Below, piece by piece: positions 32,713-34,774 of a DNA stretch of 48,288 nt. The notes beneath the pieces are model-generated. The model was not told the origin of the DNA, ran no database searches, and saw only the letters and a program-made list of their open reading frames with translations. The number at the start of each line of letters is the position of its first letter. Position 1 is the first letter of the stretch. The stretch spans positions 1 to 48,288 of the forward strand of contig JACNLL010000074.1 in assembly GCA_014381545.1 (NCBI GenBank), written 5' to 3'. Position numbers and translations under genes: made by a program. The stretch comes from Candidatus Desulfaltia bathyphila (GTDB lineage: Bacteria; Desulfobacterota; Desulfobacteria; Desulfobacterales; ETH-SRB1).

Positions 32713-33024
32713 CTATTCGTTGAATAACCTTAATTGTTTAGTATGGTTGGAGATTCTTCTTTCTGCCAATTTTACATATTCAGAATCAATATCATACCCA
32801 ATATAACTACGCTTATCTTTTATAGCAGAGAGACAGGCTGTCCCACTCCCGACAAAAGGGTCTAAAACAACATCGCTTTTGAAAGTATATAACTGAATCA
32901 GTCTATGAGGCAATTCTTCAGGAAAAGGGGCAGGGTGTCCAATTTGTCTTGCTGAGACGGCAGGAAATGTCCATACGCTTTTTGTCCATTCAAGAAATTC
33001 TTCTTTTTTAATTGTGTTTTCCTC
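32713..33024 (-). pseudogene. DNA methyltransferase, C-terminal fragment (amino-MTase type)
   Basis: The open frame reads EEFLEWTKSVWTFP..., HPAPFPEELPHRLIQLYTF and then VVLDPFVGSGTACLSAI, the S-adenosylmethionine motif (motif I) of N4-cytosine or N6-adenine methyltransferases. The order fits enzymes in which the catalytic S/DPPY motif comes first; that half is missing. There is no ATG; an upstream TAG stops the frame at 33025-33027. A perfect AGGAGG (33021-33026) lies 8 bases before an ATT codon (33010-33012). I read this as a remnant of a restriction-modification methylase. Confidence 0.8.
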
Positions 33025-33032
33025 CTAACTTT

Positions 33033-33884
33033 CTAATTAAATTGATAATGAATTTCCTTTTTATATTTTATCGGTACGCTATCAATGATTTGATTTACAA
33101 TAAATTCATCGTTATTGAATTTTACGCGCCTTAACCATCCTTGTTCATCAAAAAACTCTTCAAGATTTGCATAGGTAAATTGAGCATGAATGTTAGGGCT
33201 GACAACTAAAAGATTTTTCAAATGATGCCCTAAATCAGGCTTTATATGATGGATTTCGAAGTAAGATTTGCCAGTTTTCATTAAAAATCCAAATCCAGAA
33301 ATTTGGCACTTGCCATTGTAAATCGTAGATAAAATCGTTCTTATAGAAGCAGGAACACTCATTTTTGCTTTACTTACCCTTGGCTTAGATATCCTTTTGT
33401 TAACGTCTTTTTTTGAAAGTCTGTAAAATTCACTAAGTAGTGTTTCCTCAAACCCGTAATTTGTAATGGTTGATATTTGCTGAAGTTTTGAACCGGCTTC
33501 TACTTCATCTTTAGATTTATCCAATTCTTCTTCAATTTTTGTGATCTTGTTTTCAAACTGTTTTTCTGTAAATATTCGGTATCTGTCCTTGTCCAGAATC
33601 TGAATTACAAGTTCATCACCATCCTGGACCTTAAAATCTTTATAAAAACTTTTCATTCCTCCAATTCTACTTTCTCTGCTACTGCTCGAATATGGAGTAA
33701 AGTTTTTCAAGATAGCTTCCTTATCCTTATTACCAAAAGCCACATAGATTCTATTTTTCCTTTTTGGAAAATAATCAATTAAAGAAACAGGAATAGCTAA
33801 AAGACCTTTATTTATACGGCTTTGTGTTACCCTAATTGTTTTGTAATTAAAGGGCAATTTACTTTCAACAGTTTTCATAGTCAT
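33033..33884 (-). CDS. HNH endonuclease with N-terminal B3-like DNA-binding domain
   Basis: 283 residues. The N-terminal region (YKTIRVTQSRINKGLLAIPVS ... VYVAFG ..., read in part) resembles a B3-type pseudobarrel used by restriction enzymes to bind DNA; this is inference. A coiled-coil linker (residues 105-135) leads to an HNH_2-like domain: GKCQISG, EIHHIKP (H212, H213), N224, and SPNIHAQF (N231, H233). Only one of the usual zinc cysteines is seen. The start at 33884 overlaps the DpnD-like gene by 20 bases. Likely a Type II restriction enzyme; a homing or phage role cannot be excluded. Confidence 0.75.
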   Translation of the reverse strand: MTMKTVESKLPFNYKTIRVTQSRINKGLLAIPVSLIDYFPKRKNRIYVAFGNKDKEAILKNFTPYSSSSRESRIGGMKSFYKDFKVQDGDELVIQILDKDRYRIFTEKQFENKITKIEEELDKSKDEVEAGSKLQQISTITNYGFEETLLSEFYRLSKKDVNKRISKPRVSKAKMSVPASIRTILSTIYNGKCQISGFGFLMKTGKSYFEIHHIKPDLGHHLKNLLVVSPNIHAQFTYANLEEFFDEQGWLRRVKFNNDEFIVNQIIDSVPIKYKKEIHYQFN

Positions 33885-34056
33885 TTAATTCCACTGTATC
33901 AGCTTCTTTCCAATTTTCAAGGTTAGATAATAGCTCAATACTATCAATTTGCCGATTCCTGGCTTTTATAATTGCTTCTGCCTCATTTTCTGATTCGATC
34001 TGATAAGTGCAAAAGCCTGAGTAGTATATTTTTACTTCAAACTTTTTCGATTTCAT
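33865..34056 (-). CDS. DpnD/PcfM-like small protein
   Basis: 63 residues from the ATG at 34056 with GGAG 8 bases upstream. The pattern KFEVKIYYSGFCTYQIESEN-EAEAIIKAR (split across residues 5-33) followed by NLENWKEADTVEL resembles DpnD-like proteins encoded next to some restriction systems; function unknown. In the longer frame it is fused to a scrap of the neighbouring endonuclease. It overlaps the HNH gene start by 20 bases. Confidence 0.65.
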   Translation of the reverse strand: MKSKKFEVKIYYSGFCTYQIESENEAEAIIKARNRQIDSIELLSNLENWKEADTVELNDYENC

Positions 34057-34239
34057 TATTTCTGCTCCAATCTCAATTTGAGAAAGTCTTGGTGGTCTTG
34101 GAATAGCAAACAAACCCTTATCAATGCGACTTTGGGTTATTCTAATAGTCGAGTAGTTGTAGAATATCCCGCTATCAATTCGGATAGTCTGTGAGAAATC
34201 TGGCCTCACTGGATCCTTTCCTTTTTGATTATTCACCAA
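34057..34239 (-). pseudogene. Duplicated N-terminal scrap of the B3-HNH endonuclease
   Basis: Continues in frame into the DpnD-like gene. It contains YSTIRITQSRIDKGLFAIP, matching YKTIRVTQSRINKGLLAIP of the adjacent endonuclease, but breaks off after PRPPRLSQ. It begins at a GTG overlapping the zinc-ribbon gene end. This points to a tandem duplication followed by loss of most of one copy. Confidence 0.65.
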
Positions 34240-34447
34240 ACCCGAAATTCCGACCTATGCCAACCTCACGTTCGCAATATGGACAGATTACTGGATGCTG
34301 TGGATCAGCAACCAAACTATGATGAGCAGTACATTCCCAATGATATCCATGCCAAGACCATTCTTCGGTCATTTGCGCTGTAAACCAAATCCTATCTAGT
34401 GTCTTATTACAGTTAGGACATTTTTTCATTTCTTCTTGTGTACTCAT
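34229..34447 (-). CDS. Small zinc-ribbon protein of unknown function
   Basis: 72 residues with CPNC (residues 10-13) and CPYC (residues 55-58) plus an internal WECTAHHS. The two CxxC pairs suggest one zinc site. I do not recognise the family. It begins with ATG directly after the TGA of the ThaI-like fragment, so translation could be coupled. Confidence 0.6.
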   Translation of the reverse strand: MSTQEEMKKCPNCNKTLDRIWFTAQMTEEWSWHGYHWECTAHHSLVADPQHPVICPYCEREVGIGRNFGFGE

Positions 34448-34774
34448 TCAGTGCGCACCTACTGTCCAGATTAGTTTAACTCCACCAAAACCCTTACCTG
34501 TGATTGTTTTAACGGAGATTGGTTGTCCAAATAACTGCATATCGACCTCTGGCTCGGTGATAGGAATTTCAGTCTCTACATTTGCTTTGCCAAATTTGCA
34601 GATAAGTAAAGCTACTATTACTATTATTCTTTCACGAAGAGAACCTATCTCCATTCCAATTTTTCCGGCTCTTGAGCTTTCCAATTCTGCAAGATGAAAT
34701 AAACGTGGAAATCGTTTCTTAATTTTATCTGTGAGTTTGTTATCTTTAAATATTTCTTCTAAGTGACTTGGCAT
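34448..34774 (-). pseudogene. ThaI-like Type II restriction endonuclease, N-terminal half
   Basis: 108 residues including LFHLAELESSRAGKIGMEIG and SLRERIIVIVALLI, then TEIPITEPEVDMQLFGQPIS with D78 and K89 in a PD-(D/E)xK-like arrangement, and ITGKGFGGVKLIWTV. This resembles ThaI-family enzymes, which are about 200 residues long. Here the frame stops after VGAH, where the family continues. Assignment is from memory of the family and should be searched. Confidence 0.65.

Follow-up and report, generated by a model that had tools for sequence, protein, structure and literature searches.

We found that a B3-HNH nuclease gene, accompanied by two small genes, occupies the middle of a ThaI-type restriction-modification (R-M) operon in Candidatus Desulfaltia bathyphila, with the nuclease gene whole and both R-M genes broken. 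The stretch analysed, hereafter the window, has 48,288 nucleotides and makes up one entire contig (G000:C87) in an assembly of 107 contigs and 2.07 Mb. In the best explanation, a cassette took over the operon, and its HNH protein, at about an even chance, would be a methylase-independent defence nuclease, plausibly one that cuts modified DNA. At the level of sequence, the locus shows how one restriction-type system took over another's operon, with the methylase shortened every time; the pattern is repeated in two lineages at least, and probably in three.

Layout of the locus

The cassette and both R-M remnants all lie on the minus strand. A reading of the window from its sequence alone had proposed these parts, apart from the 27-aa stump, in this order, at 32713-34774, and each of them is present. 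In order of transcription, the features are as follows.

34448..34774, minus strand: ThaI-family restriction endonuclease, N-terminal half (~107 aa); Pfam ThaI E=1.4e-42, PDB 3ndh E=1.4e-41, and alignment
34229..34447, minus strand: zinc-ribbon-like small protein, 72 aa, the first cassette gene; 60% identity to an ORF of G399
34099..34179, minus strand: N-terminal stump (27 aa) of a second B3-HNH protein; 63% identity to residues 6-32 of the intact HNH protein
33865..34056, minus strand: DpnD-like protein (weak label), 63 aa; sequence, with 71% identity to an ORF of G204 and 48% to one of G296
33033..33884, minus strand: B3-HNH endonuclease, intact, 283 aa; alignment with G001, G204, G296 and G399, and HNH and B3 matches on homologues
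33025..33035, minus strand: right junction, from the HNH stop to methylase sequence within 0-9 bp; G296 and G399 have an equally tight junction
32713..33024, minus strand: beta-class amino-methyltransferase, C-terminal 103 aa; N6_N4_Mtase E=1.3e-24, profile positions 134-220 of 221

The ThaI gene of the window lacks its 3' half, and the methylase gene lacks its 5' two thirds. The ThaI fragment ends in a TGA that abuts the ATG of the zinc-ribbon gene. The DpnD-like ORF has GGAG as its ribosome-binding site and runs into the start of the HNH gene. A search for mobile-element ends revealed no convincing repeats flanking the cassette.

Gene content at window:31821-35224, between leuS and a ribonuclease-G-like gene, differs among genomes of the genus, which marks the segment as a variable site. 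Over the whole window, CTAG occurs once against ~39 expected and GTAC 26 times against 69 expected.

Two truncated genes from one R-M family

The restriction-gene fragment scores 146.2 bits against Pfam PF15514 (cut-off 25), covering positions 1-98 of the 203 in the profile, and aligns with residues 17-120 of the 225-aa chain of PDB 3ndh. With ~107-108 of ~211 residues left, it falls short of a full-length PF15514 protein. Its nearest relatives are in the main ThaI branch, at 77% identity, against 55% for the ThaI protein of locus L040. Two of its 22 invariant sites are changed, and it carries in addition a two-residue duplication (IVIV) that the aligned relatives lack. Searches of plasmids and viral contigs returned no ThaI matches.

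The methylase fragment belongs to the amino-methyltransferase family that partners ThaI, with 103 of ~305 residues left. It keeps DPFVGSG and lacks the TSPPY region, so that only one of the two motifs sought (TSPPY and DPFxGSG) is present. A methylase without TSPPY beside a restriction gene without half its length means that the R-M system of the window cannot work. The fragment is 78-83% identical to the methylases of L040, G004 and G296, its best intact match being that of G004, a genome of the same genus (82.5% identity); in a tree it clusters with those of L040 and G296 at a branch support of 0.93. We defined invariant sites from 27 intact methylases, among which leave-one-out counts gave 0-6 changes; by this measure none of 29 positions is changed in the window fragment, none of 80 in the methylase of G296 and 4 of 80 in that of G399. 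So few changes suggest that the events are recent or that the remnants are still constrained.

Judged by these comparisons, the ThaI and methylase fragments share an R-M family, yet each matches a different branch of it. Such a mismatch would be explained either by an earlier exchange of partners or by an HNH gene arriving with a methylase remnant. The methylase family is also found behind other upstream partners, namely main-branch ThaI, L040-branch ThaI and, in G004 and G296, unassigned ORFs.

Intact ThaI-methylase pairs in other genomes

A scan of genome contigs with the ThaI fragment yielded 40 loci. A full ThaI ORF directly precedes a full methylase at more than 20 of them, with gaps of -112 to +1 bp, and ThaI is followed by methylase at ~30 of the 40 once contig-edge, frameshifted and one ORF-separated case (L010) are counted. 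This is the arrangement that had been predicted from the window, and because it is the normal one elsewhere, the missing middle in the window is real.

Decayed ThaI loci are common (L028, G021). At L086 (G021:C254), ThaI is reduced to its C-terminal third, which stands before an intact methylase, the restriction gene having decayed from the other end, and at L028:5574-6118 a methylase with an internal deletion (residues ~112-191 gone) lies behind a frameshifted ThaI gene. The ORF at L010:5618-5995, between an intact ThaI gene and an intact methylase, is Cys-rich and encodes 125 aa.

Proteins of the cassette

The first cassette ORF is zinc-ribbon-like and Cys-rich, with no family above its cut-off; its G399 counterpart likewise lies between a ThaI fragment and an HNH gene. 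Homologues of the 63-aa DpnD-like ORF in G204 and G296 are both directly upstream of HNH. The DpnD label itself is weak, as judged from sequence profiles: PF14207 (DpnD-PcfM) has no match on the window ORF and matches only the G204 homologue (E=0.041, 14.3 bits against a cut-off of 25).

In the HNH protein, residues H212/H213, N224 and H233 are invariant in five homologues including that of the window. Three of the four zinc cysteines of the window protein are lost; such cysteines are lost in the group formed by the window, G204 and G001, whereas G296 and G399 keep them. The HNH_2 match on the window protein (E=0.009) is below cut-off, HNH matches on the homologues of G399 (E=3.6e-4) and G296 (E=3e-4) are just below it, and B3 (PF02362) is sub-threshold on homologues (G399, E=0.0011, 19.2 bits against a cut-off of 30.1). 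The best PDB profile match is EcoKMcrA (6ghc, E=1.8e-4), over the HNH part only. PADLOC run on the homologues gave weak matches that include a type IV model, with other HNH families scoring equally. An AlphaFold single-sequence model of the protein had a pLDDT of 33, too low for use. IscB was rejected as an identity for this protein, its matches being far below cut-off and reflecting the common HNH domain.

Upstream of the DpnD-like ORF, the 27-aa stump that resembles the intact HNH protein of the window is also 62% identical over 34 aa to the HNH protein of G399.

Distribution and recurrence of the takeover

HNH relatives are rare: 395 genomes of the phylum gave three new ones, and the same genus gave one. 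We found no further true family member in 389 genomes of the window's class, nor any new one by denser sampling of the class of G399, and searches of 192 relatives with the zinc-ribbon and DpnD-like proteins recovered the window alone. Phages and plasmids yielded no relative with the window HNH protein at E<=1e-5, and phages none with that of G399. A plasmid search with the G296 protein returned nine partial matches only, centred on the HNH region; in viral contigs, there were four HNH-region matches over 59 residues, and another search gave none.

Given this small set, each locus can be described. In G399 (L085), ThaI residues 3-27 and 27-45 are followed by zinc-ribbon, HNH and a methylase that starts from residue 71. 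In G296 (L084), a 197-aa ORF is followed by DpnD-like, HNH and a methylase from ~residue 61-72 with a frameshift; this 197-aa ORF has no match in Pfam, NCBIfam, PADLOC or PDB. Both methylases lack 60-70 N-terminal residues of their intact relatives and keep TSPPY as well as DPFxGSG, in open frames of 244 (G296) and 270 (G399) codons. G204 carries DpnD-like and HNH and G001 carries HNH, with no R-M remnant seen at either.

Three side observations concern these loci. The ThaI remnant of G399 is split at codon 27 by a ~270-bp insert (L085:4375-4644) with inverted and direct GC-rich repeat ends, which is MITE-like. A second C-terminal fragment of the ThaI-partner methylase family lies on another contig of G296 (L138:4593-4868, G296:C214). 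The idea that the 197-aa ORF of G296 is the N-terminus of the protein preceding the G004 methylase was dropped, the similarity amounting to a few residues and a 10-bp match (E ~0.4).

The breakpoints differ between loci. In the window, G296 and G399 alike, methylase sequence starts 0-9 bp past the HNH stop. On the other side, no more than ~8 bp separate the end of the ThaI remnant from the zinc-ribbon ATG, both in the window and in G399. Such tight ends could be the product either of the arrival of the cassette or of later trimming up to genes that need to be retained. We regard the takeover pattern as probable in G296, whose upstream ORF has no family assignment, and as well supported in both the window and G399.

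The event is composite and recurrent, and the sequence-only reading is right in its core. It had envisaged one contiguous insertion-deletion: the missing parts of both R-M genes are real, but the fragments come from different branches, an HNH stump lies between them and the pattern recurs. It had suggested a search for free copies of the cassette, and HNH genes without R-M remnants do occur in G204 and G001. As for the outcomes that it named as damaging, the R-M systems matched by the two fragments are of one kind rather than unrelated, and instead of assembly breakpoints at 33.0 and 34.45 kb we found junctions that are reproduced in independent assemblies.

Absence of the methylase and CGCG sites

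We searched G000, G001, G204, G296 and G399 for an intact methylase of the ThaI-partner family and found none, only fragments or members at ~40% identity or less. Conversely, 40 ThaI-carrying genomes gave weak, distant HNH-region matches in one genome only. Within the genomes searched, the HNH cassette and the intact R-M pair show mutual exclusion and a common locus; at three of the loci, the absence of an intact methylase follows partly from the insertion itself.

The window contains 54 CGCG sites against 86 expected by shuffling. Having these sites without a working ThaI-partner methylase makes it unlikely that the nuclease cuts unmodified CGCG here; an enzyme that did so would be lethal unless another methylase protects, and this favours a methylase-free enzyme. 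The product of the methylase, we presume, is N4-methylcytosine, given TSPPY and the lack of an adenine in CGCG, a specificity that we take over from ThaI.

An unrelated methylase of the SPPYWQLKDY type, truncated to 132 aa, lies elsewhere in the same genome (L139:1475-1873, G000:C40:20474-20872), adjoined by a convergent ORF of 335 aa which, judged by eye, resembles a nuclease. Longer relatives of this methylase occur in G002, G004 and G006.

Discussion

On this evidence, a small nuclease cassette (zinc-ribbon, DpnD-like and B3-HNH) has invaded a ThaI-type R-M operon, in which both R-M genes are now broken while the HNH gene is whole. The resemblance of the HNH stump to the G399 protein suggests two successive replacements, in which zinc-ribbon and a first HNH gene (HNH-A) may have come in, and DpnD-like with a second (HNH-B) later, at the cost of most of HNH-A and of a further part of the methylase. 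Expression of the cassette is probably from the R-M promoter, with the truncated ThaI ORF as a translated leader, a role suggested by its TGA directly before the zinc-ribbon ATG. The HNH enzyme would act without a methylase, plausibly as a cutter of modified rather than unmodified DNA, and it might be able to establish itself only where the resident methylase is destroyed, in parallel to DpnI/DpnII. We judge a nuclease that works without a methylase, and is perhaps modification-dependent, to be most likely; cutting modified DNA would be the simplest form of a methylase-free enzyme, with precedent in DpnI/DpnII and PcaRCI/PcaRCII.

This explanation draws on the commonness of intact pairs, the tight junctions, the absence of the methylase, the HNH active-site residues kept in all five proteins, the CGCG sites and the EcoKMcrA match. 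Against it, the McrA and type IV matches are, in the alignments, to the generic HNH part only, and the truncated methylases of G296 and G399, which keep their motifs from TSPPY on, may be active. Taken together, the function proposed here for the HNH protein, as predicted from sequence, stands at about even odds. A more specific version, which we consider doubtful, would make the cassette an R-M-displacing unit whose predicted nuclease cuts DNA that bears the methylation of the displaced R-M family (probably N4-methylcytosine in CGCG) and which establishes itself by breaking the methylase gene, that is, a DpnI-like counter-system for m4C R-M.

In another reading, the restriction gene was swapped: B3-HNH would be a new restriction partner that recognises the methylase's site. 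In G296 and G399, it would form a working hybrid system of type II with the shortened methylase, and the window would hold a decayed version that has lost the methylase. HNH lies directly upstream of the ThaI-partner methylase family in three of five loci, and this family does occur behind varied upstream partners; the open frames and the few or no changes at invariant sites in G296 and G399 also speak for it, and intact HNH zinc cysteines are found at just those two loci where the methylase is nearly complete. However, the N-terminal truncation makes both methylases start inside the strand before TSPPY with no clear ribosome-binding site, that of G296 has its upstream frameshift, and the window, G001 and G204 carry HNH without an intact methylase of the family, so that we hold a swap to be unlikely. 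A homing-like selfish element, whose HNH protein cuts within the R-M operon near the junction of the two genes or the methylase 5' end and whose gene is captured by repair with loss of the flanks, strikes us as improbable too. It would account for the three insertions of HNH into a locus of the same gene family (far above random placement), for the missing methylase 5' end in all three R-M cases, for variable breakpoints and, through repeated visits to the same place, for the nested second HNH remnant. Yet homing normally inserts without deletion and splits its target exactly, whereas no exact split was found and hundreds of bases of both genes are gone at each locus; the accessory DpnD-like and zinc-ribbon genes are atypical of homing genes, and there are no phage or plasmid relatives at the limits used.

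The fragmented state of the assembly (107 contigs) and the frequency of decayed ThaI loci would fit a chimera or a chance pile-up of decaying fragments, but the same gene order and tight junctions recur in the independent assemblies of G399 and G296 (in G296 on the right side), which makes this last reading very improbable indeed.

If, as our favoured takeover explanation has it, the nuclease is modification-dependent, mutual exclusion of epigenetically incompatible defences would become directly testable and a B3-HNH branch would be added to the modification-dependent nucleases. If HNH instead cooperates with the shortened methylase, the locus would be an example of a restriction gene exchanged within an R-M operon.

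Among known systems, the ThaI-family CGCG R-M systems (PDB 3ndh), of which CpaAI is an isoschizomer (PMC3658993), are the source family of both window fragments, but neither window gene is complete. EcoKMcrA (PDB 6ghc; PMC7145662) has an N-terminal recognition domain and a C-terminal HNH domain, like the window protein. The N-terminal domain of EcoKMcrA is unmatched by sequence, however, and the N-terminus of the window protein is B3-like. The hpyIII methylase of Helicobacter pylori stays intact beside hrgA, which is not known to be an HNH nuclease. hrgA is mentioned in PMC4687069 as a restriction-gene-replacing gene, present where the restriction gene is absent. The likeness is that another gene stands in the place of the restriction gene, and the difference that the window methylase is truncated.

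The PcaRCI R-M system and the methylation-dependent HNH nuclease PcaRCII are in conflict over the methylation of the R-M system itself (PMC8989522); epigenetic silencing is the way out in that case, whereas in the window the conflict, if it exists, would be resolved by destroying the R-M pair. Each strain of Streptococcus pneumoniae carries one of two systems, an R-M system blocked by modification (DpnII) or a nuclease that depends on it (DpnI), and a small DpnD protein adjoins the nuclease at the DpnI locus (PMC3573125); their specificities are cited as complementary in PMC3874153. The locus of the window may be a comparable either-R-M-or-nuclease site, but its nuclease, for which dependence on modification is a prediction, is B3-HNH and not DpnI, the DpnD link is weak, and the R-M genes are left as fragments.
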